Assembly: GCA_009746045.1 (NCBI GenBank)
Contig: RPFO01000448.1
Span: 3,684,373-3,748,372 of the forward strand
Length of the DNA: 64,000 bases
Source: Mesostigma viride
Lineage: Eukaryota; Streptophyta; Mesostigmatophyceae; Mesostigmatales; Mesostigmataceae
Reading direction: 5' to 3'
The notes beneath the pieces were generated by a model. That model worked only from the letters and a program-made list of their open reading frames with translations, was not told where the DNA came from and did not search any database. A program made the translations under genes and the position numbers. Shown here piece by piece: positions 20,798-59,507 of this stretch. Each line of letters starts with the position of its first letter. The stretch's first letter is position 1.

Positions 20798-20802
20798 GGG
20801 GG

Positions 20803-22777: not shown

Positions 22778-23067
22778 GGCCGGGCCCACTTCGAATGTTC
22801 CGCGGTCCAAGCCAAGTGTGTGACACTTTTCCTTCAATTTTGATGTAAAAATCTTGAATTTTGGCTTGCGAACGTATAAATTTCACGTAAATATTACAAT
22901 TTGTGGGTATTTATCTCATTGTAAGTCTCGTGTGACATAAAAACTTTACATTAGCGTGAAATTGCATTGTTTCATTGAAGAATATCATGGATACATTCGT
23001 CGCACTTGAGACGGAGTCGACTGAATTTACTAAAGACTCGTCCAACATAAAATAAAGTCTTCGAACG

Positions 23068-26000
23068 TCACTTCTTATTCTTGCTCCTTGCTTCTGCTTC
23101 CAATTTCTGCTCTTCTGTTTTGGACTTCTTCCTCTTTGGATCGATGGACATCGCAGGTGCCCACTTTGCCACATCATTCCAACTCTTTCCGTCCATCAGA
23201 GTCACCACCTTCTTCACATAGTCCAAAGGCATCCAGAACTTGCCCCGATGCAACTTTCCGCCCTCTGTCTCTTCTGGAAAAAACTTCATGCAAACGTCCC
23301 TCCATTTCCGATCGTATCCACCTACCTGCCCGTACAACTTCACCTCCTGTAACTTGGTATACTTTTGCTTTTCCCTACTCGCATTGGCCCTTCTCATGGT
23401 GTTCTCGGCCCACCCATCAATCCAGAAGCACTCCGGTGCTCCGTGTTTCTGTTCCCCGTCCATAAGTCTCATCCACAGCGTAGGCTTCTCATAATAAGGC
23501 TCTTGGCTCTGCGCATTCGCTTCCACCCCTTCAGACTGAGCAGTAAGTTTAGCTGCAGGACCGAAGCCCACCGCAGCGTTCGCCCGCACCACATCATTAC
23601 CTGCGCGTAACCAATCGGCACATCAACGACGGACTAAAGTCAACGTAGATAGATTGCAAACGAATTAAAAAAAAAATTCAGGATACATGCCACGACCAAA
23701 ACAGCGATTTCCTCACCCTTTGTTATTCCTTTCGGAGCTCGAGTAGCAGCTGTCTTGGGTCGAGACGAGCCGGAAGACTTGGAGGGCGCGGCAGGCTTCT
23801 TCCTCCCCTCAGACGTCGCTCTGCGAGTTGACCCTCCTGCCCCTCCACCCCTTGCCCTTCCATCACCCCTTCGCCTCCCTCCATCTTCCTCCTCCTCGTC
23901 GTCATCCCCGTCCTCCTCCTCCTCCCCCTCCTCCTCCTCCTCCTCCTCCTCCTCCTCCTCCTCCTCCTCCTCCTCCTCCTCCTCCTCCTCCTCCTCCTCC
24001 GCCTCCTCCTCCTCCTCCTCCTCCTCCTCCTCCTCCTCCCCCTCCTCCCCTCCTCCCCTCCTCCCCCTCCTCCCCCTCCTCCCCTCCTCCCCCTCCTCCT
24101 CCTCCTCCTCCTCGGAGGAGGATGATGATGACTCGACTGGCTGCCTTCGAAGCTCTTTCTTGGGATACTTTGAAACGCGCGTAGGCGCGGAAGGAGCGAC
24201 AGGCCGGGCAGAAGCGCCAGGCTCAGCTTCATCTTCGTCGTCCGAGATTTGAACAACTGCCTTTCGAAGCTTTTTGGAAGGGTGTGACTCCGGCTGCGGC
24301 TGGACAGACGGCCGCTGCCCACCCTTCCCTTTGTCCCGCGTCTTCTGCGGTGACGACTTCTCTCCCCCCTTAGACGTCTTCTGCGGTGACGACTTCTCTC
24401 CCCCCGTAGACGTCGCTCTGCGAGTCGACCCTCCTTCCTTTCCCTGTCCCTCGCCTCCCTCGTCCCCATCCGAATCTCCTTCCGCGTCATCCTCAGCCTT
24501 CCTCTTCTTCGCCAATGACGTCCACGAGACGTCAGGCATCTTCCCCATCCGAACCAGTAAGTCTTCGAAGCCATCCAATGACTTCTTTCCGCCAAAAACG
24601 ACCACGATGGGACGCAACTCCCAGAAAAACTGCGTCGCTAGCTCGATAAGCTTCCTGTGGTAACCGGAAGCTCGTTCGACAGTTGTCTTTTTTGGAGGAA
24701 CCATAAAGAGGTCATGGTCACCCCACCAGAAGTCCTTGAAGGACGTCCACTTGCGGCCGAACTCACCATCCAAATTCAGGATTCTACAGCACGGTAGTGG
24801 CGTCAGGCCATCGTCTTGCCTCGCGAAAGTGGATGGGAAGCCCTCACCGTCGCCCACCGCCACCTCCGCCGCCACCCTCCTCACAAATGCCTTCTTCCTG
24901 TCAGGGCCGCCTTTAGGGAGACTATGAGAAGAATACCAGACGGTCATCTTATCCCAGGAAATGCTGCGCCAGTTATACTCAATCGGCTCAGCACTTTTCT
25001 CTTCCACCTTCTCCCCCCCTTTCCCTGCAACTTTCTCCTTCGCCTCAACAACCGCCTCCTTCTTCCCTTCCCCTCCTTCCATCTTTTTTTGATAGTGGAG
25101 ATACAAGTCCTTGTCCAGAAGGCCGTGCGAACCCTTCATGCTGAAGTTCGGAGCGGTTTTGTCGAGGAGATCCACTAGATCGATTTTGCTATCCATCAGA
25201 TCCTTTCTCGGAATCCTTAGGTGATTGGCAAGACCTTCGGACTTTAAGAGGTAGGCGACATTGCGCGTGATGATGACGGCCTTCTCCCAAAATGCAAGGA
25301 ATCGATCGACGACGTCCTTGTTCCTTGGCATCCGCCCAAGTAGTCGACAGCCGAACACCTCTTCAAATAAGCGAGAAGCCTTGTACTCCATATCAGCCCC
25401 CCCTTACATTCGCCATCCAAGTCGGGCTTTTCCTGAAACTTAATAAGGATGAATTGGCGAACGCACTCAAGTACGTCCTTGGCCAACTCCACCAACTTTG
25501 ACAGCTTTTCGGGCCCAACCTCCCCACTCATGATGCATTCACACACAGCGTCCATCATCGGAAACGACGCCAGGTTCCTTACAGACGTCCAGGACACCTT
25601 TTGCCCCTTCTTGGTGCCCTCGGCGTTAGCGAACCGGCATCTGAGAGTCATAGTCTCCTCAGAAGCTGGTGTGACTGAATTCTCATCATCCGGCCTGGCC
25701 TTTGTGAGGCGCAGGAAGGTGTTCGCCAGAACTCGATTGTAATTTGAAATTTGGGAAGGTTGGGCCTTGTTTTTTTTCCGCTCGCCTTCTTCCTCCCTCA
25801 ACTCCCCCTTATCCTCCTTACTCCCCTCCAAACTCCCTTCCCTCCCGACTGATTGTTTGGTGGCCGGCAGGATGTACGCCAGCAGGTTCGTGTAATGGCC
25901 ATCGGGAATAAAATGCCCTTTGCCCTGCTTCACGACGCCGTGCAAGTACAGCCTGTTGTAATTCCAAACATCCAGAAGCGCCTGCCCAAGCGTCCGATCC

Positions 26001-29000
26001 GCTACCGCCTGATCTTCGGCATTGGCGCCCTTGGAGATTTCGAATAGGCGATCCAGCTTCTTCTTCCCAACCTCCTGTCACGAACAGAGGAACGAAAAAT
26101 TGACACACAAGAACAATTCAAGGGTCGACTTGCAGCGTGACGTTATGAACGCACGGGAGCGCGAAAAATGGTCTTCAGCGCCGAAATCGGTAAGTTAGGG
26201 TCACTCTGCGAAACCACCCCAGAAATATGTCGGGATGATCTAGTTTGACTGCCATTGTCGTTTCTGTGTGCGACTTCCCGCATTTATAATGCATGATAAT
26301 GTTAATCATCCCACGGTCCTAAATTTAGGACTTTGTCCTAAATCGTCCTAGTGGTCACTATAACCGAGGTACCGGGGGGGGGGGGTCACTATATGGACCG
26401 TACCCCATGTGGACCGTACCCGGCATGATGTACCCGACCCGTGGTACCGGCACATGGTACCCGGATTCCGTACCCGGGTACCGGGTATAATGGCGGGAAA
26501 GTAGGTACCTCGACCAAAAATATAACCGATTTTGGAGCGAAAAAGTGGGTGCGGGAATGAAGTGAGGTGGATATGGCGACCTGACAATCGTGGCCGGCGT
26601 TTTCACGTGCGTTTATCATTTCGGGCGCCCAGTAGCAAAAACGAAAGGTTGTTAGTTATGCTTAAAGGCTGTGAATATTTTCTGCGCAAGTTTTTATGTG
26701 TAGCGCTGTATCACAGCGGCACAACACAAATGGGTCGCAGATCGCCTGCTCGCGGAGGGTCGATTTTGGCACAAACATGTTAGTGTATTAGCAATGGTGG
26801 TGCGAATCAAGCCAGGAAATTTTTGTGGACGATTTTTATTATAGTCTGGAGTTTAGAAACGGAGTATTTGACATGGGAGCGCCTGGGCCGTGATATTCTT
26901 GCCCGATTTCCATTGTCGACCATGTTTTAGGGACGTTCAGGCTGGGCAGCGAGCGCACCTTATAGGTCTTCACTTTCGGCATTTCTTGGACCTAGAACGC
27001 AGCACAAGCGTGGTTTATATCATTGTCGAACCGGTTGGCCAGCTTTGGTGCGCTCAGCTCTCGGAAAGCTGACCTCGCTGCGGATTTCAGCGACTTTTTT
27101 GCAACCATCTGGAATGAGGCGACGTAAGTAGCAGGTAAGTGCCGGGTTGTCCTAGATCATGAGTGTAACTGGCAACGCTGTCGTGGTGTTTTGAGTCAGC
27201 CAGCTATGCCTAAAAAGAGGGGACGCTCTCTGTGCACATAACTGTCACACATAGTTGGTTTACGTCATACAATTTTTTACGTCTCTATCTTCGTCGTCCG
27301 CTGCAGCTAAAACACACATGCGTAAGAGCAGTTTTACTCATGTGTTAGTTATAAACCATGGTCCTATGGCCTGCAGTCGTTCAGGGTGTTCTCAGACAGT
27401 ATATACAGTATGGTTTACGTGTTACATGCACCCTGAATTCGCTCACAAAGCGTTGCATGTTAGCACAACGTTGTTTTGTAACTTGATTTGGCTGCATTCA
27501 TGTGTTAGTTGCAATGCAAATGCAATGTTTTTTCATCGCTGGGTGGTGGCCAGCATGTCCGTGATGTCAAAGAAGGTTTGGCATATGCTTAGAGAAAGTT
27601 TACCGCAAGGGGTGGGCCATGTTCAAGCCGGGCAACCTCAGCAACCATGCAACCCTATATTGCATTACCTGCACCATCTGTGACACCGTTAATCACGCGT
27701 ATATATAGAGGCAGCCACAGCAGGGTATGGCCTTGTTATACGCTGCCCCGCCATCCCAAGGCCTCGTAGGGTCCCCTAGCGCTTGTAAGATGCTCAAGGG
27801 ACCGTGTGGATAGCATGGTCATGCGTTGACAATAATTGGTCCTAATGGTCCTAAAACCCACATTTTGGCCAAATTCGCGCTTTGAGGTCTGGCAGGTGGC
27901 AGGGCCCATTCATGCACTAAATGTAATTATTTGACCCCAGGTTTTTGATAGAAACTAAAAAAGTGTGTTATCTGTCATGGGCACGAATGCCAGGGTCAAA
28001 TTTTAATGTTTGCATGTATATTTTTTAATTCCACTTGGTCCTAAATTTAGGACTTTTACTGGGAAGATGGACATAAAGGAAGACTTTTGACATGGTCACT
28101 CCACAGTGCGACCCTTACTCGACATAACACGACGAAGTGGTGGAACTGCAGCGTCACCATTGCCATAGATAGAACTACCACTTACAGATATTTCCGGGAA
28201 ATTTTTACACTCGTCCCAATTTGGAAGAAGGTCGGCCCCCCGAAGCAGAATGACGTTCGTTCCCCCGTACCCAGTATGGAATTGTTCCATAAGGGATGAG
28301 AAAAGTTTAGCCGCCGCGGCACTGTCCTTCGCGTTCTCAGACGCTGCCCCCCCTTCACACATTAGTTTCTTAACATGTGTCACACCGGGCGTCCATTCCC
28401 CCTCCAATTGCTTGAAAGACTTTAAACCCTTGAAATAGTGGTTTCCGTCGACCACCGCATATCGAAGAACGAGATATTCGCCATCAGGATGTTCTTCGTG
28501 AAATCTTGGGTCGAATGCCTTTAACCCCTAAATGGTCTTGCTGCCGATTTTCCGCCAAAAATCGAGTTCCAGCCGATGCATCGGCCCCTTCTCGGGGGAC
28601 CAGATGCCGCGAAATCTATTGAGAATTAGGAAAAGTTTAGCTGAGAAGATTGAAAGTTTATAATTTTCCTCACAGCATGGTACTAGGGTTTGCATACTTC
28701 TGACAAAGTTATAGAGGTGTTCTGGCCGGTCAAAGTACAAGGGGTCAGGGTACTTTTTCACGTACAACGTGCATTCCGGAAAACGACGACCTGGCCATGG
28801 CGGCTTGCGCCCACGCATGGCATTTGCGTTTTCGTTCGAATTTTCTGACCAAACTTAGGATATTGATTTTATACGTCCTAAATATCATACAGCCCAATTT
28901 TTGGTTCGCGGGAATGCCATTTAATAGGTGTCGGCAGCGTTCTTGCTGGAAAAAACTGCGATCAGGCCGGACGATAGAAACGTTGACAGCAATACCTTTC

Positions 29001-32000
29001 CGGCGTATTTTAAAGGATATATCGGTTTATTTGTACTTTTTATGATACATAATAGTCGTAAACGTGCAAGGGTGGCCAGAAATCGCCGAATCCAGCGACC
29101 ATGCTGCACAACTTTGGTGTGCCGAAATGCGCCATTTTGGGCCACCGCCTGGGCCAAGGTAACGCCATCCATGCCTGGTAAAGCTTAAGCATCGTTCTCC
29201 TATCGATGTTTGACGTTTATATGTACGTTCTAGTTTGTGTAGCACATTCTTTTTGCATTATTCATGCTCTTTCTTGACCCTGGCCTGGCCCCTTTCTAAA
29301 ACACCCTTCTTAGATGCTTCCCTCAGTCAGTTGACCTGCCACAGGGTGATGGTGATAAGTTTTAGAGGCTGCATGGGTTTGAATACCTCCATATATGTTT
29401 GTTATACATTTCCCATACACATATTGCATGAGTGTGAGGCAGTTGGCTGGTCTCTGTGGCATCATCAAGCACGTAACTGGTGAGTAAAAGCTTCCCATTG
29501 ACAGCATGTGCCACCAGGTGTGCTGGCCATCACCTGGCAAGCTATAGCAGCTTAGGCCTAGTTTATCCTTGCTAGGGCAGGCTGAAATAGGCTCAACATC
29601 ACTAGTTTGTTGGTGGCTGCCTCCTAGAATGCATGCCTTGCGTAGGGTATCCGTACCACGTTACCTACGTGCATGGACAAGGTAGCACCTGCACATAGGT
29701 GCCATGTAAGGGCAGTGTGATGATGCAGTTATGTTTCCCCATCATTGTGGAAGGGAAATGTATTGTTTGGCATGGTTGGTGGCCATATTAGTAGGTAGTA
29801 TGCCCACCCCTACCCCCTTGGTTGCTTTTTACCAACGGTACCCCTAAGGGCTGTGCTGGGTGTAACTGCTGGTATACCCACCCAAATGATGACCCCAATG
29901 GCTCAAACTGTTCAGCAACTAATTGTTTATCATCCCTGAAGTGGTAGGTGCCTAGGTCTTATAACATAATTCAAAATGCACATTCTACCAAAAATGAAAA
30001 CGCGCGTCTTGACCCCCCTGACTTTGACGGCAGTTATATATGGCCTACCCTGCATATATGTGAGGTTGTGATATACCAACCCGAAGGGCAACTCATGGAC
30101 ATGCTTGCCCCCCAAGGACAGCCATTGGATATGGGTAGGTTGGATGGCATCTGGTTTGCAAAATTGTGAAGATCCAGCCGATTTATCGGCAGGATCTCAG
30201 ACCATTTAGGGGTTAAGGAGGTCTGGCTTATTAGGCTGAAGACCTCCCTTGGTTGAAAATCAAAGGGCAGAACGTCGTCTTGTTCCCCGACTCGTGCATA
30301 GGTCCGGAACTCAACACCTCTCTTGAGGAAAGAAGCGGTGGACTTGGTTCCAAGATACTTCTCAATCTCCTTGTCGGACAAGGGGCGAAAGTAACGCGAG
30401 CCCACGAACTCCGCGTCAGTCCTAGCGCCATGGCATTTTTTCAGCCAATCCCGGTAAGGGCCGGTGGACGTGATGTGTTTGGCGAAGAGGCTTGGCTTGG
30501 TTTCCGCAAGCGCTTGAAAGGCGAACTGCCACACAGGGATGCACACCTTAAAATGCAAACTGTTTGTCTTTGCATTCAGCAAGATGCGCCCGTTCTCCCT
30601 GAACACCTCATCGCTTAGCAACCGCTGCCTCATGTTGTCAGGCAAAATCAGCCCGTTGACGGTGTGAATGCGCATGCTATTGCAACCGGTATCGATGAAG
30701 TCACTCGGTCGAATCCAACGGGATTCCCGCACAGCATTCGCGTCCCGAATGGCTTTGTCCCTGATCTCCTTCTCGGAGTCCACGGTCGTTGCCATCTTCC
30801 AATCTTTGATGATCGGCTCCTTGTCCACCTTTCCACTACTCGTCAGGATCCCCTCCTTGAAGAGCTTTGAAAGTGCTTTCAGAAGCTCAAGAAAAGGGGA
30901 GAAGGTAGGCCACTTTAATATATCCGACGCCGGCGCCTTGCCCCTGGCTTCGACGTAGTTAAGCATCTCCTTGACGAGTGCAAAAACGGCATCATTGCCG
31001 GCCAACCTTCCGTCACCGTCTCCTTCCCCCTCGGCACCCTGAACGAAGGCATTGACGAACATGAGACAAGAAAGCAATAAATAGTTAAACGTATGCATAT
31101 AGTCCGCGAGCGTAGGAAAATCTCAGAGTAGGGTGCTAAGAACACAGAAGGTAAAAAGGGTCACTCCACGGAGCTACCCCTCTGAATCTAAATCACCAAA
31201 AACGCACCGCTTCCTTTTCTCCCGCCTTCTTCCCCTTCTTTCCTTTTCCGCCTTTCTCCCCCTCGCCACCCTGGAGGAAGGCATTGACAAGGATGAGACA
31301 GGAAAACAATAAATAGTTTAACGTTTGCAAATAGTCGGCGTGCAGACAAAAAATTCCGAATAGGGTGCAAAGAACGGAGAAGGTAAAAAGGTTCACTCCA
31401 CAGAGCTACCCCTCTAAATCTACAATTCCGCAAAAACGCACCTCTTCCTTTTCTCCCGCCTTCTTCCCCTTCTTTCCCTTCCCGCCCTTCTCCCCCCGGC
31501 CGCGTCATCCTCCCCCTTATCCTTCCCCTTCTCCTTTTTATCCGCATCCCTCTTCTTTTTGGAATCTTTTGCCTGACCCTCAAGCAGCTTCGCCCGTTCA
31601 CGATCCCTTCTCTTGAGATCCCACTTCATGAACTTGATGACCTTGTCCACCTTCGCCTCCGTGTACGCCTTTGGTTTCCACTTGAACTTTTCGGTGCCCT
31701 TGGACTTGACTTGGTTGACAAAATCATAGGCCAGGTCACCGTTGAAGGTGTCGGCGCCTTGCATTGCGAAATCGGCCGCCGCCTCAACGCGTAGTTGGGT
31801 GAGATACTTGCGAAACTCCCCGGCACCCATCGTAACATCCTTAGGGGGATTGCCTAGGATGAGTTCGCCAATATCACAGGCAGTCTGCACCTTCTTCCTT
31901 CTGGCAATAAGCTTTAGGTAAGCTGCTTGGAGTGTCGTCGTCGCCCTTTTTTTAGCCTGCTGGAAGGTATACCAACAACACACAACATACACATGAAGCG

Positions 32001-35000
32001 AAATGTATTAAGAAGAATAATCTGCACTCTGGCATCCTAGCTCTGCAGCGCGACCTTCAGCGTTATAAACTTAAAAAACATTGCACAAACCTTTGCCTTC
32101 CCCTTCCCCTTCGGAGTTGGCTCGGGCTCATTTTCTTCCTCCTCCTCCTCCTCCTCGTGCTCCTCCTCCTCTTCCTCCTCGTCCACCTCCTGCTCCTTCT
32201 CCTCCTCTTCCTTCTCGTCCACCTCCTGCATGAAAAAAAAATAATAATAATTCAGACGATGACATAAAAAAAACGAGCATTAATTTTGTTTTAACGTTGC
32301 TCTGCGGAGCGACCCCAACCCTGGGCTTGAACAGTAAAATGAACCAAATTTCCTACCTCTACGTTCTCCGTCCCCATCCCTTCGACCTCTTCGAAATGTT
32401 GATCGTCGTCCTGCAAGACAAAACGTGCGTTCAGATAAATATACAAAGTCAGTCAAAACAGGAAGTATTTCTTGAATATCCTATCTTCACAAATCGACCC
32501 GAACCTTTAGCGGCATTTGCTTACCTCCGGGTTCCACGCTGAAGGACTTTGTCCCTCAAAACATGGAATGTCACCCTCCTGGCGGGAAGTAGAGCAAGAA
32601 ATGCGTTCATCGTTAGTAACAATTTTCAACAAAAGAAATACACAACACTAATCTAAACGGACTGAATAAAAATGTACACAAATGTCAATAATTACCTCAA
32701 TGTCAAATCTCCACTCCCGCAACACTTGTCCGATCGGCCACATCTCAGATGGAGTTGTGTGGCTCAGTTCGTTTTCGAAAAACGTCCGAAGAAAAAACAA
32801 GTGAGATAGCATGTCCTGACTCCATGATTTCTCGTTTATGTTCGCCGTCACTAACGACAGGCAGTCGTCGATCCCCTTGTACTCAAGCCATGCGACAACC
32901 TCCTTTCGTGGGGGCTCATACTGTCCGGCCATGTCGAACTCCCCACTCTGACGAAAACGCAGGATCTCATCCTCGCACAACTGAAGAAACAATTCAACAG
33001 CTCGACTCGGAAGAATAGGGTCTGGGTTCACCCTAAACTGCGCCATCCACACTGAATACGACGAAAGGAAGTGCGATCTAACCCCATCCAAATCTTCAAT
33101 CACTTCCGAACCAGCCCTGAACAACTCGGGAGATACCGAGTGGTCCATGGCGATCAGAAAGTCGCCGAAGACATCCCAGTCGAACTGTGCAGCCTTGAAC
33201 CCTTTCTTCAAGAGCAGATTGACATCCGTTTCCGTCAGCGGGGAGGTGTCCCAATCCTCACCTGTCTTCCCCTGCTCTAGGACCTGGTACATTTCCCACC
33301 TGCAGACAGATATGATGATGTCAAAATACTCGTGTGACAATGGGTGCTGTCTCGTGTCCTTGCAGTACTGTTTGGTCGCACAAGACAGCTTGATCCAGAC
33401 GAGCAGGCTTCGAGGAACATAAGCTGTAACATCCGCTGCGTCGGGTATCGTTGACCCGCACTCGGTAACAAGCAACTCAAAGGTGTCGAAAGAGATGCAA
33501 TTTCTTTCCCCTTTAACCTTTTGCCTCGAAGGCTCCGCCCCATGACTTCGAACAAAAGATCACGAAGTGTTGGATCACTCCAAGGGTTCATCTTCTCATC
33601 AGACCCGACTGACACCTCTCATGCCAGACACCGTCATCGATCGCAACTTCGATCTCCTTCGACACAAAGGTGCTCAAGAACGACTTGGCGTCATCGTTCA
33701 GATGTTTTTCGTAAGTCGTCAACCATGACTTCCAAGTTTCCAAGCCCCTCAACTGGATCGGCTGCACACAGGTCCACAAAACGAAACAAAAGCATAATCG
33801 GAAAAAAAGTTTAGGGTCACTCTGCGAAGTGACCCTTCATAAAAAAATCTCAAACAGAACGAACGACTAACTGACATGCACTATGAAGCGGCGAAAAAAT
33901 TATTAGCTCACCCGCAATTTCTCCTCCCCACTCCCAACCTCGGCGTTCCCCTGAGACTCTGTCTCATCTCCCCCTTTCTTCCTCTGGATGCAGCAAGACA
34001 GAGGAAAGCATACTCGTTGAAAAAGTTTAGGGTCACTCTGCGAAATGACCCTCCATAAATTAATCACACATGCAAAGGAAACGGCAACTCAGAAATGATG
34101 GACAAATGAACAAAGAACAAAGGCGAAAAACACAGGATTACTTATCGCTCACCTCCGTTGTTGTCCCGCTCTTCTTGGGATCCTCTGACTTCTTTTCGTC
34201 TGCCCCCCGCTTCCTCTGAAATCAAAACAACAGGGAAAAGCATACTTGTTGGTTCAGGTTAGGGTCACTCTGCGAAATGACCCATTCATGGTCAGACGAG
34301 CTTAGCAGAGATAAGGAATAACGAAACCGTTAAAAAAAACACGCACACTAATGGGGGTAAAAACTGTTTCTCACCTGAGACGGCTCCGTACCCTCCTTCT
34401 CCGAGACCCCCGCGGTCTTCCCATCCACCTCCGTCGACTTTTCTGCAGCCTGCGCCTTCCTGCGCTCCTCCTCAAGTTTGGCTTGGTATTTCAGGCGTGC
34501 CGCCACACCCGCCTCCATCATCCTCTTCCCCTCCTCCTGCACCTTCCTCTTCGCCTTTGCCTCCTCGTCCTTCTTTTTCCTTTCCTCATTCGCCTTTCTC
34601 TCCTTTTCGTCCCGCTCCCACGACGCCCTCCTCTTCCTGCGCTCCGCCTCCTCCATCTCCGCAGCTTCCATTTCTGCCTGCTTCGCCTCTCGCTCTGCCC
34701 TTTCCTTCTTCACCCATTCCCTCTGCTCCCTTTCCAGGAGCTCCTGGGCGGCCTTCCGTTCCTTGTCCTTTTTCTCCAGATTCACCAGATCTTCGGCGTG
34801 CTGCGTTGCCTGATCCAGATAAGAAGTCAGAAGTGCCATGCGGTCATTCCTTCTCTTTCTTTCCTCCTCCGGAAGATCCTCCAGTGGCCTTGGGTCTGCC
34901 TTGTCCCTGTCCTCCATGCTGATCAGGAGGTCAATGTTCTTCTGCAGATCACGCAGGAACCGCTCATGGTCATCCTCCTTCTCCTCCCATTCCGCTCTTG

Positions 35001-35849
35001 CTTTCTTTCTTGCCTGTGGGGAGCGGCTCCTCGGAGGTGAGTTTGACGACCGGCGCTTGGGTGGCGACCGGCGCTTGGGCGGAGACTTCCGACCGTGAGA
35101 CTTTGCAGGCGACTTGGGCGGTGATCGGGACTTGGAGGTCGCCCCCTTCTTTGGAGGGGAGCTTTGGGGAGACGCGGGCTGCGAGCTGGGCTGTGAGGTC
35201 GAGGCCTCGGGTAGGGACCTTGAAGGAGACCTGGGCGACGTGCTGACCTTCGAGGTCGAAGCCTCGTGGTGGGACCTTAGAGGTGACTTGGGCGGCGGGC
35301 TGCCCTGCTCAGACGCCTCGTGGTGGGCCCTTGGAGAAGACTTGGGCGGCGAGCTGGGCTTCGAGGTAACCACCTCGACGGGGGCGGACCTCGGCGAGTT
35401 TGAGGTCGACTTCCCGAGGACGGGGGACTCCTTGTTGATGGCGGGCCGCTGGGGAGACTGTGGAGACACAACGGAGCTGGACCCAGCCCCGGCAGCCTGT
35501 GCCTCAGGTGCGGGCCGCTGAGGAGACTGTGGAGACACAACGGAGCTGGACCCAGCCCCGGCAGCCTGTGCCTCAGGTGCGGGCCGCTTGGGAGATTTGG
35601 AGGCCGACGCCTCCACGGAGCTTGGCCCAGCCCCGGCAGCAAGCATTGTTGACAGAGGAGGAAACTCCTCTACGCCCTTGGGCGGAGAGGCGGGTGGCGT
35701 ACTATACTTAGGAGACTCGCTCGTCGACTTGACCTTGTCGACATAGGTGGCCCTCTCCACCTCTTTTCCCTTCTGAAGCAAGGAGGCCCTCTCCTGCTCC
35801 TCCTTTTCCTTCTGAAGCTGAACTTCCCTCTCCTTCTCTTGTTCCTTCT
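23068..35849 (-). CDS. Giant multi-exon passenger gene of the 23-kb transposon, unknown function
   Basis: Exons inferred from GT/AG junctions, in reading order: 35849-34375, 34215-34153, 33983-33912, 33761-33616, about 33613-32696, 32578-32525, 32410-32357, 32225-32091, 31959-31442, 31270-31208, 31038-30213 joined over a TTAA insertion to 28520-about 28127, 26074-23717 and 23600-23068 (stop at 23068). The total is about 2,500 residues. The N-terminal exon has Ser/Pro-rich repeats (SPPKSSPRAHHEAS, PPKRRSPPKRRS) and a long charged coiled coil (KKERAEREAKQAEMEAAEME). Exon 5 has DTFELLVTECGS and ends WRFDIE. The penultimate exon holds FKDFWWGDHDLFMVPPKK and a poly-Glu tract. I recognise no domain. 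One frame change lies in a G-run near 25412 and others near 33520-33615. The 5' end is unresolved: the first exon seen starts after a GCCGCAG acceptor. Confidence 0.6.
23915..24115. repeat. (CTC)n/(GAG)n tract coding poly-Glu
   Basis: This is about 200 bp of CTC triplets with few interruptions, inside the penultimate exon of the minus-strand gene, where it encodes an almost pure Glu run. The other frames over it (poly-Ser, poly-Pro, poly-Arg) are shadows. Confidence 0.95.
26316..28053. mobile_element. Probable non-autonomous element with palindromic ends GTCCTAAATTTAGGAC
   Basis: The 16-bp palindrome GTCCTAAATTTAGGAC occurs at 26316-26331 and 28038-28053. Extra GTCCTAA copies lie just inside (26336-26350, 27837-27855). 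The segment fills most of one intron of the giant minus-strand gene. It contains no recognisable transposase. It includes a stretch rich in GTACCGG/CCGGTAC motifs (26365-26490). The target duplication is unclear. Confidence 0.45.
28525..30212. mobile_element. piggyBac-like (TTAA) non-autonomous element, 1,688 bp
   Basis: Ends are inverted repeats CCCCTAAATGGTCT (28525-28538) and AGACCATTTAGGGG (30199-30212). TTAA flanks both sides (28521-28524, 30213-30216). It splits an exon of the giant minus-strand gene. Deleting it with one TTAA restores a continuous frame (…SQTSL then KAFDPRFHEE…), which proves that the exon is real and the insertion young. Inside are a CCGATT/AATCGG subterminal palindrome near each end and no transposase. 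Confidence 0.9.
31041..31441 (-). repeat. Tandem duplication of an intron with its flanking splice sites
   Basis: The block from ACCCTGAACGAAGGCATTGAC (about 31036) to GCACCGCTTCC (31208) recurs as 31268-31441 at an offset of about 232 bp. Both copies keep the acceptor, the GTGCGTTTTTG donor and the CACTCCAC-GAGCTACCCCT palindrome variant. The duplication created the 21-codon exon 31208-31270, rich in Gly/Lys (GKGKKGKKAG). Confidence 0.8.
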
Positions 35850-36004
35850 GCGGCAAATAAGGAAAAACAAATAGACCAATGTCGGATGAAGAAAGTGTAA
35901 ATTCGCATCAGCGTGAGGGGTGGCGCTGCAGCGCTACCCTAAGAAGAAACAAGGATGAAATCCCATTCAGGTTTGGGAAAAAAAAAATCGAAGATGTAAC
36001 TTTT

Positions 36005-36520
36005 ATAAACGTATCTGGAAAGGGTGACTCGGCAGCGCGACCTTACAACACAAATGTGATTGAATAACGTATCTTGGAAAGGTCACTCGGACGCGCTACC
36101 CTACAAACAAAATGTTATTGAATAACGTATCTGGAAAGGGTGACTCTGCAGCACTACCCTACAAACAAAATGTTATTGAATAACGTATCTGGAAAGGGTG
36201 ACTCTGCAACGCGACCCTACAACCAAAATGTGATTGAATAACGTATCTTGGAAAGGTGACTCTGCAGCGCTACCCTACAAACAAAATGTTATTGAATAAC
36301 GTATCCGGAAAGGGTGACTCTGCATCGCGACCCTACAACCAAAATGTGATTGAATAACGTATCTTGGAAAGGTGACTCTGCAGCGCGACCCTACAAACAA
36401 AATGTTATTGAATAACGTATCTTGGAAAGGTGACTCTGCAGCGCGACCCTACCAACAAAATGTTATTGAATAACGCATCTTGGAAAGGTGACTCTGCAGC
36501 GCGACCCTACAAACACTGAA
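36005..36520. repeat. Tandem repeat, unit about 59-60 bp, each with the palindrome
   Basis: About nine units of the form AACGTATCTTGGAAAGGTGA-CTCTGCAGCGCGACCCTACA-AACAAAATGTTATTGAAT. Each carries one copy of the dispersed palindrome family (GGTGACTCTGCAGCGCGACC). The array lies upstream of the giant minus-strand gene. Confidence 0.9.
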
Positions 36521-36655
36521 TGGAAGTTTGCATTGTGAGGGGGTCACTCTGCAGCGCGACCTTACAAACAAAGACTGCGACATTGCGCAAGGGTAGGGGT
36601 CACTCTGCAGAGCGACCCTACCCAAAAACAATACTAACCACTCCCCAAAAAAATC

Positions 36656-38765
36656 ACGCATGGATGGTGGTGGTGGGTGGCTGGCAGGCATGGATGGTGG
36701 TGGTGGGTGGCTGGCACGCATGGATGGTGGTGGTGGGTGGCTGGCACGCATGGATGGTGGTGGTGGGTGGCTGGCACGCATGGATGGTGGTGGTGGGGTG
36801 CTGGCATGCATGGATGATGGTGGTGGGGTGCTGGCATGCATGGATGGTGGTGGTGGGTGGCTGGCACGCATGGATGGTGGTGGTGGGTGGCTGGCACGCA
36901 TGGATGGTGGTGGTGGGTGGCTGGCACGCATGGATGGTGGTGGTGGGGTGCTGGCATGCATGGATGGTGGTGGTGGGTGGCTGGCACGCATGGATGGTGG
37001 TGGTGGGTGGCTGGCACGCATGGATGGTGGTGGTGGGGTGCTGGCATGCATGGATGATGGTGGTGGGGTGCTGGCATGCATGGATGGTGGTGGTGGGTGG
37101 CTGGCACGCATGGATGGTGGTGGTGGGGTGCTGGCATGCATGGATGGTGGTGGTGGGTGGCTGGCACGCATGGATGTGGTGGTGGGTGGCTGGCATGCAT
37201 GGATGGTGGTGGTGGGGTGCTGGCACGCATGGATGGTGGTGGTGGGGTGCTGGCATGCATGGATGATGGTGGTGGGGTGCTGGCATGCATGGATGGTGGT
37301 GGTGGGTGGCTGGCATGCATGGATGATGGTGGTGGGGTGCTGGCATGCATGGATGGTGGTGGTGGGTGGCTGGCATGCATGGATGATGGTGGTGGGTGGC
37401 TGGCATGCATGGATGGTGGTGGTGGGTGGCTGGCATGCATGGATGGTGGTGGTGGGTGGCTGGCACGCATGGATGGTGGTGGTGGGTGGCTGGCACGCAT
37501 GGATGGTGGTGGTGGGTGGCTGGCACGCATGGATGGTGGTGGTGGGTGGCTGGCACGCATGGATGGTGGTGGTGGGTGGCTGGCACGCATGGATGGTGGT
37601 GGTGGGTGGCTGGCACGCATGGATGGTGGTGGGGTGCTGGCACGCATGGATGGTGGTGGTGGGTGCTGGCACGCATGGATGATGGTGGTGGGTGGCTGGC
37701 ATGCATGGATGGTGGTGGTGGGGTGCTGGCACGCATGGATGGTGGTGGTGGGGTGCTGGCATGCATGGATGATGGTGGTGGGGTGCTGGCATGCATGGAT
37801 GGTGGTGGTGGGTGGCTGGCACGCATGGATGGTGGTGGTGGGTGGCTGGCACGCATGGATGGTGGTGGTGGGTGGCTGGCATGCATGGATGGTGGTGGTG
37901 GGTGGCTGGCACGCATGGATGGTGGTGGTGGGTGGCTGGCACGCATGGATGTGGTGGTGGGTGGCTGGCACGCATGGATGGTGGTGGTGGGTGGCTGGCA
38001 CGCATGGATGGTGGTGGTGGGTGCTGGCACGCATGGATGGTGGTGGTGGGGTGCTGGCATGCATGGATGATGGTGGTGGGGTGCTGGCATGCATGGATGG
38101 TGGTGGTGGGTGGCTGGCACGCATGGATGGTGGTGGTGGGTGCTGGCATGCATGGATGGTGGTGGTGGGTGGCTGGCACGCATGGATGGTGGTGGTGGGT
38201 GGCTGGCACGCATGGATGGTGGTGGTGGGTGCTGGCATGCATGGATGATGGTGGTGGGGTGCTGGCATGCATGGATGGTGGTGGTGGGTGGCTGGCACGC
38301 ATGGATGGTGGTGGTGGGGTGCTGGCATGCATGGATGGTGGTGGTGGGTGGCTGGCACGCATGGATGATGGTGGTGGGTGGCTGGCATGCATGGATGGTG
38401 GTGGTGGGGTGCTGGCACGCATGGATGGTGGTGGTGGGTGCTGGCATGCATGGATGATGGTGGTGGGTGCTGGCATGCATGGATGGTGGTGGTGGGGTGC
38501 TGGCACGCATGGATGGTGGTGGTGGGGTGCTGGCATGCATGGATGGTGGTGGTGGGTGGCTGGCACGCATGGATGGTGGTGGTGGGTGGCTGGCACGCAT
38601 GGATGGTGGTGGTGGGGTGCTGGCATGCATGGATGATGGTGGTGGGGTGCTGGCATGCATGGATGGTGGTGGTGGGTGGCTGGCACGCATGGATGGTGGT
38701 GGTGGGTGGCTGGCACGCATGGATGATGGTGGTGGGGTGCTGGCATGCATGGATGGTGGTGGTGG
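36656..38765. repeat. Minisatellite, 30-bp unit, about 70 copies
   Basis: The unit contains GGATGGTGGTGGTGGG, then TGGCTGGCACGCAT or variants with TGCTGGCATGCAT and GATGATGG. Because the unit is a multiple of three and lacks stops, several frames on both strands stay open for hundreds of codons (for example a ten-residue HHHHPCVPAT or MDGGGGWLAR repeat). With no splice context or start, I treat these frames as by-products of the repeat. Confidence 0.95.
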
Positions 38766-39262
38766 ACATATCGCTGGCTGAGGACCAACACGAAAAAAGA
38801 AGCCATATCGCTGGCTGAGGACCAACACGAAAAAAGAAAACATATCGCTGGCTGACGACCAACACGAAAAAAGAAAACATATCGCTGGCTGACGACCAAC
38901 ACGAAAAAAGAAAACATTTAGCTGGCTTAGGACCAACACGAAAAAAGAAAACATTTAGCTGGCAGAGGACCAATACGAAAAAATACTCTGGTCGCTCGCT
39001 GAGGACCAACCCTTAAAAAGAAGCCGTGTCGCTGGCTGAGGACCAACACGAAAAAAGAAAACATATTGCTGGCTGAGGACCAACCCTAAAAAAGAAGGCA
39101 TATCGCTGGCTGAGGACCAACACGAAAAAAGAAGCCATGTCGCTGGCTGAGGACCAACCCTTAAAAAGAAGGCATATCGCTGGCCGAGAACCAACCAGAA
39201 AAAAGAAGTCATGTCGCTGGCTGAGGACCAACACGAAAAAACAAGCCATATCGCTGGCTGAG
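38766..39262. repeat. Tandem repeat, unit about 37 bp, about 13 copies
   Basis: The unit contains ATATCGCTGGCTGAGGACCA then ACACGAAAAAAGAA, with drift (GGTTAGGACC, ACCCTTAAAAAG). It abuts the 30-bp minisatellite without a gap. Confidence 0.93.
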
Positions 39263-41068
39263 GACTACAAAAGGGCATCATAGACGCCACCCTGCTCGCG
39301 CGAGTAAGTAGGGGTTCGTTGCACATTTACCTGCACGCATAAATCAGGAAGGGGGAAAAACGGCATTGAACAGGACCACGATTAGAATTGGGCTAGCTAT
39401 AAACTAACCGGACCATTTGAAGGCATAGCAACAAACATCACGCTCGACATCAAAAAAGACTGCGCTGTTGATGCACCTTTTTCATTATGGCGGCGAGTTG
39501 AGGCGGCATTTGTCTCACCATCTTCAGGCAGCGATGATTATTACAGAAAACAGCTATGGCGGCAGCAGTGGTGGTGCGGTTTTCGAAACCCAACAGCTGT
39601 TGTGACCGATCGTCCGTGGAGCGACCCCTGTCAACGGCCCAGCGTAACCGGCGTTCAGGACGGAAAACGTGGCATGCTCGCCATTCGGCCAACGAGGCGA
39701 AACGCGGCGCTAGATTATTCTTATTGACAAACCGCGCATGCGGATTGGACGACTCACAATGTGACGTAATCCAAGCGTCGGTCTTCACGGTCCCGCAGGT
39801 ATAAAAAGGAACAACACGCAGCCAATTTGACGCTACAATCGGGATGTTTGGATTCGGGCGTCACCATGCTGCCGTGGATAACGACGTCCGCGGTTCGATT
39901 CTAGCGTGAGCCCGGTGCTTTTTTGCACGTCGTCTGAGAGATCATCTGTCATATTACCACCAGTCGTCACTCTGCAAAGCGACGTGCCTACTGCCACGTG
40001 GTATGGCAAAAATTTCGAATGCAGAACTTTTGGGGTATACAAATAAATATATTCATGAATCGGGTATAGTAAATGTATGGGGATATATACTAACATGCTA
40101 GCCAATATATTTATACTTTCTGCTGTCCATATGCTTATTATTATGATTATTGTTATGAATATGATATATGTTCTTTCTAATATTTGTTAAATATATTTTC
40201 CTATTTACTGCTAACTTACTGTACTAGTTTTTTATATAAATGACTAGTACTAGATAGATTAATGCCATGAATACAAATTTAAAATATTGATTAAATTTTA
40301 TGACAATATTACATATATTTATGGACATCACTCTTTTTTTCATACAATAAGTAGAAAATATTTAGTATTAGAGATAGCTAGTCTGTCCAGTTCATATTTC
40401 TTCTATCTAAACAATAATGATTGTAATAGAAATAGTACTAAATACTAATTAAAACTATATAAATACCAATAAATACTTTCCATATTTCTGCTACATAATT
40501 AAACAATAATGATTAAAACAATTATGTTCAATATTCAATTTCATTTAGTAGAATCTTAAATAATTCCATGAATTAATTCACGTATTTTCCTGTCTTGGTG
40601 TGATCATCCAGGTACCTCGATCGGCAACGACACGACACGCCTGAAAAATGAGCCGGGAAGGTGTGTTTCCAATGATGCAAATCTTGGTCGCGCTGCAGCG
40701 CGACCTCTTCTCAGTTCCATACGAAAAGGCCTTAAAACTTGTGTGTAACTTCGCAAGGGTCGCGCTGCAGAGCTACCAAAAATTTCATGAAGTTTGACTT
40801 TCTCTATATTTGCTTCGCAATTGAGATTCTTTTGTATCTGCGAAGAAGGTGGGGTCATTTCGCGGAGTGACCCTGCTAATATGTAAATTTTTCCGTGAAT
40901 TTCTTTTTGTTTCTGCAGCACGGGAACGGGTGTTTCTTTCGCCAACCTCCTCCTCCTTGCGTGGCGGCTTTGCTAATCGACTCAATGCCCACAACTTGAG
41001 CATCGGGACACCGACGCCCCTTGCAGCGGATCTGAAAAACAGCTCGAAACGAAATTTCGGGAATGAGA
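39263..41068. other. Spacer between divergent genes, with AT-rich island
   Basis: 39263-40069 has ordinary composition with short frames and no recognised product. 40070-40610 is strikingly A/T-rich with few G or C. 40611-41068 carries three copies of the dispersed palindrome (about 40690, 40756, 40851). It could also hold the 5' end of the plus-strand transposase gene, since an open stretch follows TTTCTGCAG at 40919. Confidence 0.6.
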
Positions 41069-44000
41069 ACCGCAGCACCTCGCCCGCCTCAGGAAGCCAG
41101 CGAAAAGGCCTGGCCAGTACGCCGAGAAGAAGTCTGTTGTGGGGACTCATCTTGCTGATGAGGCGTACAACGTAGTTCATCACATGAGGAATGAATCTAC
41201 CAAGCGGGCCTCTTTTGAGGAGATTGTTGATGGCTTCAATAAGAGGGCTGACGAGCTCAAGGCGGAGCATTTTGACATTCCGGTGGCCAAGCTTTTTGAT
41301 GAGCAGCGGCTTGCACAACTGTCGAGGTCTTGGGTGGCTCGGCTGATCGCCCTTTTTGACGACCTGTCGAAATCCGACCATGACAGAGACGTCAAGATCA
41401 TTTTGGTGTCAACTCTTTTTTGTGGGGACGACATCGAGAAGGAGTTTTCGGCGGCAGAGTTGGAGAGAATGACGGGTGTCCCCGCGAAGACCATTCTCAA
41501 AGTTCGGGCGATCAGAAAGCAACAGAAGATGGAGTTCCTGACGCGTGCGCTGGCGCGAAAGAAGAGGAAGTTGCCCCAATTTGTAATCGAGTCGATCGCG
41601 CAGGCTTGGACTGATGAGGAGAACTCGCGCGCTTCGCCCCAAGAGAGGGATACCATAAAGACGCACGAACGAGTTGGCAATCGTGCGATTTTGGTTGGTG
41701 TCCAAGGGGCCTACTTCTACCTCACCTCGAAGGAGGACATATATCTCAAGTTTTTAGCGGAGCACACGTACTGGGACAAGAAAAGTCCGCAGTATGAGAA
41801 GGATGTCGGCATCCATGTCGGATATACGACTTTCTGCAAGTACGCCCCCAAAACCGTCAAGGGGAAGTGGAAGGAGAGAAACGTGTGCGCCTGTGAGACG
41901 CATACGGTCATGCAGTCGAAGGTAGCGGCATGGACTAGGTACTGCAAGGCGAAGCACGGCAAGAACTGCAAGTGCGGCGACGAGTGTGAGGGATGTTTAA
42001 GGGCGAGATTGCCTGACGGCACGTGCGGGATGTTCGAAAGCCTGCACACGACCGAATGGGTGAAGCACTTCCATTGCCGTGTGGCGGAGGCGGATGGGGG
42101 AAGTGAGCTGGGGGGTGGGGCAAACTCGGCGAGAAACGAAGAGGAGGAAGGGGACAATAATGTGACGGAAGATGAATGGCAGGGGCAAGACCTTGACGAT
42201 CTTGAAATAAATGAGAGGATCGTGGAGGATGAGGAAGGGGTGCCAAGGGTAGGGGACCCATCCATGGAGGAGGGGTCTGTCTTTCGCATTCTGAAGAGGG
42301 CATGTATGGAGAACTCGTGTCCCGAGTCCCGGTGTGGCATCAAAGACTGGGTGTTGTGTGACCGGGACAAGAATTCAACAGAACTACTAAATTGGTTCAG
42401 ATACGTGAAGAAGGAGGTAGTGGTTTCCCGACCGGCAGGGGAGGTAAGCGTGTTTGGATTTTGTGACGCAATTATTTCGCAGCGTCATTCTGCAGCGCGA
42501 TGTTAATTTAAAGGCTTTTCTGATACTTTATGAATATGTTACTTGCAAATTTACTTCATCCCTTGGTTAAAACAGGACGCGACCGATCGGCGGGTCCCGG
42601 AGAAGGTCAAGCGGCCCGTACAGGAAACGATGAGGTCAACGCCCGCGCAGCTGAGGCTGGCGATTATCGAGAGTTGGGAGGACTTTACCAACCACTGCTT
42701 TACGTCATGGTGGCAGTCGGCAACGATCAAGGACCGGGAGAGGAACATGACTGAGGGGGATGTGCTCGTGCATGGAGATTGGGCCGAGAATTACGAGAAC
42801 AACAACTACGTCCAACTGCAGTCGCAGTACTTTCACAAGACGAGCTTTGTCCTCATGCCCATGATCGTGCGATATTTGCACAATGGTGCGATGGCAAAGC
42901 GAACGTTCTTTTTTCTCGGGGAAGCCAAGATGAAGCGGGGAGAGCGGGCGCTCGTCTACGCGCTGAGGACAATCATGGAAACCCTGCGCGGACTTGGTGT
43001 GGGGGTGAAGAGGATGTTCATGTGCTCTGACAACTGCTCATCCCAGTTCAAGTCCAAGTACGTGGTTAACGCCGTCTTCCGCCTCCTCATGCAGGATCCC
43101 GACTTGGAATCCTTCGAGTACCACTACTTGGGTGAGCAGCACGGGAAGGGGGAGGTGGATGGTCAGGGAGCGAAGTTCAAGTGCATTGTGAGGAACATGC
43201 AATGCATTCCTGAGAACCAGGGCATCGTTACAGGGCGCCAGATCGTCAAGTACATGCGGGACAGCTGGGAAGGAGGCAAAACCACGAGCAGGGAGTCGGC
43301 CCGCGCTCGGGCAGAGGGCGTCCACCGTCATTTCTTTCATTTTCCTGAGGTGCGAAACTCAATTTTTCTTGAACTTGATTGAGGTATCTCTGCAGAGTGA
43401 CCTTTTGCCCATTTGCATTTTATTATTTGATAATGCTAAAAGAACTGGTATGAATTAGCGTCTTATATAGTGAAAAATGCATGCAAAGCACTTTCAAAGG
43501 GGTATCTCTGCAGAGTGACCCTTCATGTGTACTTGATCTATTGACACATACCAACTTTCCGTTTCTGACATTCTCCCTCATTGCAGGACCTCGACTCCGG
43601 CGCCCGTATGATACCGACGCGTGTCGAGGCCATCAAGCAAGCGCACTGGTGGCGCCTGGACAAGTCTGACCCGGGGCTCCTGATGATGAGGCGTTTTTCG
43701 TGCTACTGCCCAGCCTGCCTAGCTAACAGGTGGGAGGAGTGCCGGACCGAGTGGACACATATCGAGGAATTTAACGATGAGGGCCAAACGATGAAAACTT
43801 TCCGCCTGATGCCGCCAACGCAGCCCATACCTCCGGTTCGCCAGCTGACGCGGGCGGAACTGCTGAAGGATCAAAGGGATGCCATTGGCAGGCAGATGCG
43901 CATGTATGATTACATCGCAGTTCCGTCAGACAGAGAGGACGTGAACCACAATTCCGCCCACCCTTTTTGGGTGATGCAGGTGGTGAGGGAGGCCTCAGTG

Positions 44001-44330
44001 CTGGAGAAGGAGGAGGTTAGGTGGGTTGAGGGACAAAACGGACGGCAGAAGGAGATTTTCTTGCCCGGCCACGCCGTTCTGGCGGTTCGGCTGTGGAAGC
44101 GAGATATGCATGACCCCCTGCATTTTACTCTGGATTTGGCTGATTGGCCGGAGTCCCGCCCAGCCGACCTGGTCGATTGCTATCTGTGCATCTCCGCTGC
44201 TCTTCCGCTCCAGTGCATGGTCCTTGGCAACCAAAGGCAAGCCTACGTTGATATGAGCAAGGAGCTTGACGCGTGGCTAACCGCTCTTGTACGCAACCAG
44301 CAAGCCCCGGAGGGGCTGCCACCGGCTTAA
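41069..44330 (+). CDS. DDE-type transposase of the 23-kb element, three exons
   Basis: Exons: about 41069-42443, 42576-43349 and 43587-44330. Both introns (132 and 237 bp) are phase 0, with GAG|GTAAGC...ACAG|GAC and GAG|GTGCGA...TGCAG|GAC. The first in-frame ATG is 41184; the open frame begins after a stop near 41066, so an upstream exon is possible. Exon 1 has a DNA-binding-like N-terminus and a Cys/His cluster (CACETH, CKCGDECEGC). Exon 2 carries the catalytic-looking core: VLVHGDWAENYENNN (first Asp), FMCSDNCSSQFKSKY (second Asp) and GEQHGKGEVDGQGAKFK. This combination is typical of a widespread but poorly named eukaryotic DDE transposase group. Exon 3 has CYCPACLANRWEEC and AHPFWVMQVVREA, and ends LPPA. 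No stop interrupts it, so it may be active. Relation to Sola is inferred only from the 4-bp duplication. Confidence 0.8.
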
Positions 44331-44926
44331 ACTTTCGGGGACGCTCCGCAGCGCCACCCCTACGGATCTTTAAGCCTGGGCTTTATTCGCCTACGGTTGG
44401 GACAGTGTTTATTCGTGTTTATATATTTTTGGAGAACATTTTTTTGTTTTTTCATATGTTACATTAGATGACAAGTGGCTGGGAACATTGTTAGCCTCGG
44501 TAGTGACAAATTTTAGTATATTTCCGTGTCGAAATGGCGAGTATTTTATTTAACTTGTACAATAATTATTTCGAATTACAAATTTATAATTTGGTTTGAC
44601 CTAAAAATCATGTCGTCACTCAAATATAGTAGTTGCTGTGTAGGACTTTCCGTCTGCAAATTGGTTCGTACTAATTTCGAATGTCACAACAATGTTACTG
44701 TACTAAGGCCTGTTTGGTAGATGTCTTAAAACACAAATTCGCTCCGGAAGTGCCAAAGTACCTTGCTTGTAACCGGACTAGTTACGAATTGTGATTGGAA
44801 GGTTGTCCCCTACAACCACAAGGAATAGAGGGGACGCTCCGCAGCGCCACCCATACGACAGTCCGGACCGGGCTTTGCTGAAATAATTTTCTCACTCGCA
44901 ACTTAGCCATCAAACTCACTTTTACG

Positions 44927-45400
44927 ATGGAGCGCGCCGATGTTTTTGGTTCGCAGCATACATATGTGCATGTCGATAAAAAGGAGCATGCGGCCAACAT
45001 GTATGTTGAAATCGACTCCCCCCCCCACGACTTCCCACGCTCCCTGCGGGGACCGTTTGGAGGTTGGGGTTCAGGTGTCATTGCGTTCGGAAACGGGATG
45101 ATCGACCTGATGCCCCCAGATTCAGATTTGGCGCCTGCCCCCCGTGTTCCGGGTAAGGCCAGGGTGGTGCAATGCCTCCAGAATGAGGGCACGGAAATTT
45201 CGCCCAATGTCTCGGCTGTGCGCCTCCGGGCTGAGGCCCAGCATGAGTTCTTGAATGCGGCGGAAATAGGTGGGGCCGTATGGGCCCCCAAACAATTTTC
45301 CAACGAGCCTCCAAATTTCGTGGGGGACTTGTACAAGGGAGCGTACAAGTTTCGTGACATTGAGATCGATGGATGGGGGTCATTTCTCCAGGAAAAGTGA
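44927..45400 (+). CDS. Small ORF (157 codons) near the right end of the 23-kb transposon
   Basis: It begins MERADVFGSQHTYVHVDKKE and ends DIEIDGWGSFLQEK. It follows the transposase 3' end by 600 bp, with a copy of the palindrome at 44831 in the spacer. Composition is protein-like (PPHDFPRSLRGPFGGWGSG, NEPPNFVGDLYKGAYKF), and a possible AATAAA lies at 45494. I recognise no family. It may be an accessory gene of the element; a single-exon chance frame cannot be excluded. Confidence 0.5.
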   Translation: MERADVFGSQHTYVHVDKKEHAANMYVEIDSPPHDFPRSLRGPFGGWGSGVIAFGNGMIDLMPPDSDLAPAPRVPGKARVVQCLQNEGTEISPNVSAVRLRAEAQHEFLNAAEIGGAVWAPKQFSNEPPNFVGDLYKGAYKFRDIEIDGWGSFLQEK

Positions 45401-45493
45401 ATGCCGGTCCCATTTGGCAAATATAATCGATGATTAATTCCATGCAACATTTTGCGTTGGTCAAATGTGTAAATTTGCATTATTCATCGATTC

Positions 45494-45499
45494 AATAAA
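45494..45499 (+). terminator. AATAAA polyadenylation-type signal
   Basis: The hexamer lies 94 bp after the stop of the 157-codon ORF and before the right terminal region of the 23-kb transposon. Confidence 0.35.
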
Positions 45500-45696
45500 A
45501 TTATGGGGGTGGGTATACCCACCATTTGATGGTTGAAAGTACTACTAGCTTCGTCGATTAACTCTTCTCAACATGGTCCTCTAGTCGACTAGGATTGTAC
45601 CAATCCATCAGGGTATCGAGAAACTTGTTATGCCGAAACACTCCGGTCGAAAATTTCGTGCCACCTGCAGGCAATCAAAAAGCGCACGCGGACCGA

Positions 45697-45838
45697 CGGG
45701 AAAGAGTAGTTAGTCACGAAATTAAAAAAACGACAAAAAGTGTCACACGCGGCCCGGCGGGAAAGAGTAGTTTGTTACGAAGTTAAAAAAACGACGAAAA
45801 GTGTCACACTTTTCGGAACATTCGAAGTGGGCCCGGCC
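45697..45838. repeat. Duplicated subterminal module at right end of 23-kb transposon
   Basis: GGAAAGAGTAGTTAGTCACG...AACGACAAAAAGTGTCACAC is followed by a near-copy (GGAAAGAGTAGTTTGTTACG...AACGACGAAAAGTGTCACAC) and then the terminal CGGAACATTCGAAGTGGGCC. The AAGTGTCACAC box also occurs inside the left end, so the module probably contains a transposase site. Confidence 0.75.
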
Positions 45839-45842
45839 AGCA

Positions 45843-59478: not shown

Positions 59479-59507
59479 TTAAGAAATAAATAATAAAACA
59501 ATACTGG

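Follow-up and report, generated by a model that had tools for sequence, protein, structure and literature searches.

The Sola superfamily of transposons is described as having 4-bp target-site duplications, a DDD transposase and variable inverted repeats, with some members longer than 15 kb (PMC10741241; statements on published systems here and below follow parts of the cited papers). Sola1-1_Ec32 of Ectocarpus, a giant Sola-1 element of 21.5 kb, carries an accessory gene for a 1104-aa ParB-like and methyltransferase protein on the strand opposite the transposase, and the giant families in the same paper often have nested insertions and pseudogenised transposases (PMC12477816). The VANDAL transposons of Arabidopsis encode VANC proteins, anti-silencing factors whose targets are family-specific motifs within introns and intergenic repeats (PMC5735166). 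We analysed 64,000 nucleotides of the streptophyte alga Mesostigma viride (contig RPFO01000448.1; hereafter, the window), in which positions 22778-45838 hold a 23-kb element with a transposase gene, a small open reading frame (ORF) and a passenger gene of about 2,480 codons. The explanation we favour, with somewhat better than even confidence, is a high-copy family of giant Sola-like cut-and-paste elements with these three genes, containing a 22-bp palindrome predicted to be the site of an element-encoded dimer, likeliest the passenger protein, that would act in anti-silencing or marking.

Transposition efficacy is reported to drop when the cargo exceeds about 6 kb (PMC6431247). Giant cut-and-paste elements are thought to lose mobility, yet two families of 20-27 kb coexist here with many copies and the same three genes. 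What is new here is that giant Sola-like elements carry, besides an orphan accessory gene of very large size, a palindromic word differing by family. Among the published cases met, Sola1-1_Ec32 is the nearest; no earlier description of this element was met in the literature searched, and supplementary files or a later Mesostigma genome annotation could contain one.

A giant element at many places in the Mesostigma genome

The element is bounded by a perfect 25-nt inverted pair at 22778-22802 (plus strand) and 45814-45838 (minus strand), with AGCA on both sides (22774-22777 and 45839-45842). Inside these repeats the ends are unequal: CGGTCCAAGCCAAG-type subterminal sequence follows the left repeat and AAAAGTGTGACACTTTT-type sequence adjoins the right one. 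A non-autonomous relative of 493 bp at 48383-48875, flanked by CCCT on each side, has the 25-nt ends and both unequal end types in swapped, opposite orientation, and a search between the two ends of the 23-kb element found no further 15-nt end motif (≤2 mismatches), indicating that these are the two ends of one element. When the flanks were joined with a single AGCA, the reading ...FRGKFSKRCGT* was restored. An earlier interpretation of the window from its letters (the sequence-only reading) had reported the inverted ends with their 4-bp duplication, the short relative at 48383 with a duplication of its own, and an insertion within a retrotransposon ORF whose flanks join at a single AGCA, all of which held. 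We are nearly certain that 22778-45838 is one mobile transposon unit. The converse, that two independent short elements bracket a host segment and form a composite by chance, has next to no probability, and was ruled out by the unequal ends, the lack of internal ends and the copies elsewhere with the same ends and gene set, as described below.

We searched the 440-Mb M. viride genome, which includes the window; match counts are lower bounds. The left end had at least 395 candidate matches, and piece m of the passenger gene (its exon pieces are lettered a-o) lay 2.6-8.7 kb downstream in 34 of the 40 that were scored. At least 834 candidates were found for piece m itself, the 150 scored comprising 67 with 94-100% identity (family 1, some partial) and 83 with 66-67% identity (family 2). 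The small ORF had at least 291 candidates, with 67 at 79-100% identity (some partial) and 83 at 66-67% among the 150 scored. For 35 of 67 family-1 and 36 of 83 family-2 passenger matches, a small ORF of the same family lay at a distance of 12-42 kb, with order and orientation as expected; among the scored matches, a wrong arrangement was seen once in each family and cross-family pairing was not seen. Contig ends, fragments and unscored hits are likely among the causes of the unpaired matches.

Six family-1 copies (C685, C1, C1106, C87, C1446 and C72) were examined. Note that they were selected for having the left end, piece m and the small ORF listed close together, and are not a random sample. 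Both 25-nt ends were perfect in all six, with spans of 19,619-27,461 bp, and the 4-bp duplications were perfect in five (AAAT, TTGT, AATA, AAAA and TGCT), that of C1 having one mismatch (ATTA/ACTA). All passenger pieces a-o, transposase exons T2-T4 and the small ORF were matched in each copy, some partially, the 13-nt first transposase exon being too short for this search. Identity to the window element was 98-100% in the transposase exons, the small ORF and pieces j-m, and lower in the low-complexity pieces (92-100% in i and 94-99% in n). Thus, the genome check proposed in the sequence-only reading found the three genes that it had placed in one transposon between the same ends at all six loci. 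Since a 20-27 kb unit with 25-nt ends and 4-bp duplications lies at many places, it moved as a whole; this is a high-copy family of an element that has recently moved.

Copy-level results for family 2 rest on a single copy, C85, which spans 21,542 bp and is flanked by the duplication CGCA. Its ends are a perfect 24-nt inverted repeat (GGGTGGTCCCACGCGG...), unlike those of family 1; its gene order is the same. The three genes are retained in the second family, although its ends differ.

The transposase and the passenger gene

The transposase gene is on the plus strand at 40648-44330, with exons at 40648-40660, 40919-42443, 42576-43349 and 43587-44330 taken from the EukProt gene model Mv26047 (P0001, 1018 aa). 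A protein search with the transposase core gave two matches, both from the EukProt M. viride set (Mesvir1): P0001, 100% identical over the searched part, and P0002, which is 68% identical and is 92.6% identical to the transposase region of C85. The reading frame in the window copy is one base shorter than in the six other copies. In the predicted structure of the core, the mean predicted local distance difference test score (pLDDT) was moderate at 52, core blocks reached about 70-84, and the fold was RNase H-like; the catalytic exon (42576-43349, plus strand) contains HGDWAENY, SDNCSSQFK and HGKGEVDGQG. The model supports a transposase with an RNase H-like core and candidate catalytic residues D581, D665 and D708 (or E706) in P0001 numbering. 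A fold of the whole transposase (pLDDT 31) and matches to DUF7869 (E 0.026 and 0.12, below the cut-off) were not used, and the VIA-align rows of the core named no DDE superfamily, an absence that excludes none. The small ORF (44927-45400, plus strand, 157 aa) accompanies the passenger in both families.

Placement of the transposase among the DDE superfamilies, which the sequence-only reading had called for, is only partly settled. Like Sola, the Mesostigma elements have 4-bp duplications (AGCA, CCCT, the perfect ones in five of the six copies, and CGCA in family 2), inverted repeats that vary and a length above 15 kb, and their transposase may have a DDD triad; searches of Pfam and NCBIfam gave no sequence match for it. 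We call the element Sola-like by its duplication length and acidic residues, without a sequence assignment. KDZ and Zisupton, which have 8-bp target-site duplications (PMC12730594), were rejected because the duplications here are 4 bp. Ginger, with TG..CA termini (PMC10741241), was rejected because the termini are GGCC..GGCC in family 1 and GGGT..ACCC in family 2.

The passenger gene lies on the minus strand at 23071-35847 and was modelled by exon finding, codon use and homology to family 2; its start was not found. Pieces a-e are at 35847-34375, 34215-34153, 33983-33912, 33761-33616 and 33517-32696, pieces f-j at 32578-32525, 32410-32357, 32225-32091, 31956-31442 and 31270-31208, and pieces k-o at 31038-30213, 28520-28186, 26074-25404, 25403-23717 and 23600-23071. 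These 15 pieces, with 12 GT-AG introns, total 7,446 nt or 2,482 codons, in agreement with the previous estimate of at least 13 exons and about 2,500 residues. When codon use was scored after training on the transposase (pieces i, m and n trimmed), the modelled frame ranked first of six in 14 of the 15 pieces; it came second by 0.02 in piece f, and in piece l it was best with a score of only 0.03. The best-of-six score in 300 non-coding control windows of 300 nt was ≤0.02. The giant gene of about 2,480 codons is real.

Between the families, nonsynonymous divergence (dN) was lower than synonymous divergence (dS) in all 12 matched pieces (13 tried), as seen in pieces k (0.33/2.56), m (0.29/2.73) and o (0.37/1.23), and dN/dS was 0.25/0.91 for the small ORF and 0.21/0.86 for transposase exon T3. 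Note that dS is saturated in pieces e and l, that piece a contains stops in the family-2 copy, and that a family-2 match to piece d was sought and not found. Inter-family identity was 54-65% in pieces k-m and o, 45% in i and 31-34% in a, e and n. These comparisons support the view that the giant protein and the small ORF have been under constraint between the families.

Profile searches gave no name to this protein. Against Pfam, the passenger and the small ORF had nothing convincing, the best, unrelated rows being RecQ_Zn_bind (E 0.015) and oligo_HPY (E 0.054), below the cut-off; NCBIfam gave no convincing domain for either, and PHROGs named none for the queries used there (passenger pieces k+l, the transposase and the small ORF). 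Upstream and downstream passenger queries had no match in the protein database, and no relatives were found in viral and prokaryote contigs or, for two passenger pieces, in phages. In layout, the element resembles Sola1-1_Ec32: both are giant DNA transposons of an alga in which a large accessory gene and the transposase occupy opposite strands (PMC12477816). The Mesostigma element differs in that its accessory gene has about 2,480 codons and no ParB or methyltransferase domain was detected. That the passenger is a diverged form of the ParB-like and DNA methyltransferase accessory protein of algal transposons is unlikely in our estimate. The position of the Ectocarpus gene fits this explanation, as does a passenger stretch, YLVLRYAVVDGNHYFKGLKSF, identical in both families. 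By eye, YLVLRYAVVDGNHYFKGLKSF resembles the ParB-type DGNHR motif, but neither Pfam nor a methyltransferase profile supports this membership. Pfam gave no ParB or methyltransferase match, with no unfiltered ParB profile run, and family 2 lacks the VPPK stretch that looks methyltransferase-like in family 1. A methyltransferase identity for piece n was not supported: with a profile built from 30 methyltransferase sequences of IMG/VR contigs, the passenger pieces scored no better than shuffles.

Two further features were noted in the passenger gene. An exon with its intron is tandemly duplicated (31008-31190 and 31240-31422, 81% identical), and a 16-nt palindrome, GTCCTAAATTTAGGAC, occurs at 26316-26331 and 28038-28053 in the same intron, perhaps as the ends of another nested element.

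A palindromic word in the non-coding DNA of the element

The introns of the transposase and passenger genes have in common a 22-bp palindromic word, GGGTCACTCTGCAGAGTGACCC, for example at 33814-33835. At ≤6 mismatches, the window has 28 sites, 27 in the element and one, at 48451, in the 493-bp relative; in each of ten single-base block shuffles the count was 0 or 1. None of the 27 overlaps an exon, though about 47% of the element is marked as coding; 13 lie in introns, with at least one site in nine of the 15 GT-AG introns, and 14 lie outside identified introns. Each of the six family-1 copies contains 25-32 sites (20-32 per examined copy of both families). No site was found in the outer flanks of the six copies, in 12 kb of sequence on the outer side of eight left ends, the window's among them, or in the rest of the window; 500 random 150-bp windows from outside had no match to the word within 7 mismatches, and 226 kb of bacterial and viral DNA had no match at ≤5 mismatches. 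The sequences flanking the sites are mostly unlike, except in a tandem array, duplicated introns and the pair 33814/34030.

Family 2 has the variant GGGTCTCGCTGCAGCGAGACCC; a search with the family-1 word, allowing ≤6 mismatches, located 20 sites. Of these, 19 are outside aligned exons, and, as in family 1, they occupy the region upstream of the passenger, the stretch just ahead of transposase exon 2 and the one separating exons 3 and 4. The outer GGGTC/GACCC and inner CTGCAG are common to both words, and position 6 and its mirror 17 switch together between the families (25 of 27 versus 1 of 20, and 27 of 27 versus 0 of 20); note that array sites are not independent, so that Fisher values for this switch are overstated. 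The joint change of half-sites, and the presence of sites in introns, would suit a role in RNA, with intron hairpins aiding splicing or hiding the introns. However, arm pairing among the 28 window sites (216 of 308 pairs, reached by 250 of 1000 shuffles) does not exceed what the column make-up gives, and about half of the sites are outside identified introns, so that we consider this role quite improbable. Since pairing is not kept beyond column make-up, it is the letters of the word, rather than a hairpin, that are conserved.

The mechanism that we propose is as follows. The DDD/DDE transposase would be the enzyme cutting at the 25-bp ends, with a 4-bp stagger, while a dimeric element-encoded protein, likeliest the giant passenger, would bind the 22-bp palindromes in introns and intergenic DNA. 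By recognising copies of its own family only, the passenger would keep them transcribed (anti-silencing) or mark them. We place the passenger first among the candidates for this role on three grounds: it is specific to the element, it combines fast-changing with conserved parts, and VANC offers a precedent (PMC5735166); even so, we rate its binding to the palindrome at somewhat less than even. The likeness to VANDAL/VANC lies in short motifs that are specific to the element, occur in introns and intergenic DNA and are partly tandem, in different motifs of related families, and in an accessory protein with conserved and variable parts (PMC5735166, PMC10398659). The corresponding pattern here, an element-specific motif in non-coding DNA that is partly tandem, holds across the examined copies, their flanks and the window; the Mesostigma system differs in that its word is a 22-bp palindrome whose binding and anti-silencing role are predictions. 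VANDALs are Mutator-like elements with transposases of another kind. The palindromic word may label the element for recognition by a protein that the element itself encodes, and it is conceivable, slightly less so than passenger binding itself, that an independent counterpart of VANC/VANDAL arose outside Mutator-like elements in an early-branching streptophyte alga, the accessory proteins of about 2,500 residues in two giant families having co-evolved with a palindromic address word whose half-sites changed in step.

The main rival for palindrome binding is the transposase, subterminal repeats in other superfamilies being transposase binding sites. Under this alternative, the palindromes would be spread through the element for complex assembly and the passenger would have another role. 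As transposase binding might predict, both families have clusters of motifs immediately ahead of transposase exon 2 and in the interval from exon 3 to exon 4, the non-autonomous relative retains a single palindrome at 68 bp from its end, and in the 23-kb element two sites are found 1.0-1.5 kb from the right end. Most sites, however, are in introns and the central array, and the window copy has none within 3.4 kb of its left end; on balance we think this alternative doubtful.

Several observations weigh against passenger binding as the favoured explanation. The word was picked from the window element, so that its enrichment there is partly circular; its absence outside and the family-2 variant are the independent parts of the evidence. 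The two variants cross-match at ≤5 mismatches (9-11 family-2-type sites per family-1 copy and 15 family-1-type sites in the family-2 copy), and the transposase or a protein of the host, rather than the passenger, may be what binds the word. No domain, and hence no DNA-binding domain, was found in the passenger with Pfam and NCBIfam. Furthermore, the passenger is interrupted by insertions in three of seven copies. In the window copy, a 1.69-kb TTAA-flanked nested element, absent at that place in all six other copies, interrupts the exon made up of pieces k and l; C1446 has an insertion in piece a, and C72 in piece k. Several copies also have out-of-frame length changes or stops in low-complexity parts of i and n, and family-2 copy C85 has a frame change in piece k; such small changes are either real or assembly errors. 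Thus, the passenger is conserved across the family split yet not intact in every copy; the protein may act in trans, or the insertions may be later than arrival. The suggestion in the sequence-only reading that long frames mean a protein working for the element gained from dN below dS between families and lost from these interruptions, and we still regard it as probable.

The word has so far been found only in non-coding DNA of the elements and is family-specific, which makes it testable whether large passengers pay their way by recognising and protecting their own copies, and whether systems of this kind arose more than once.

The host retroelement, nested element and arrays

The retroelement around the transposon has end repeats at 20801-21283 and 59506-59988 that differ at one of 483 bases, and a GGGGG duplication; a paralogous empty site is at 53260-53380. 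The transposase introns are present and lie on the retroelement's strand, which argues that the transposon arrived after the retroelement's own insertion.

The nested element in the window copy of the passenger (28521-30216) is non-autonomous, with 18-nt perfect inverted ends including TTAA, and a 98% identical copy occurs elsewhere in C87. Three successive tandem arrays, with units of 58, 30 and 37 bp, occupy 36008-39265, and element length varies between copies. The 58-bp array (36008-36515, 8.8 units) is non-coding by codon use, and most of its units have the 22-bp palindrome. The 30-bp (70.7 units) and 37-bp (13.6 units) arrays, at 36655-39265, lie between the two divergent genes. On the passenger strand, codon use gave no support for a coding role of the arrays; the 30-bp array scored 0.10-0.12 in all three plus-strand frames. 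To the left of the element, the window also contains long direct repeats that are 100% identical (11610-12029 and 12994-13413; 5404-5589 and 6786-6971).
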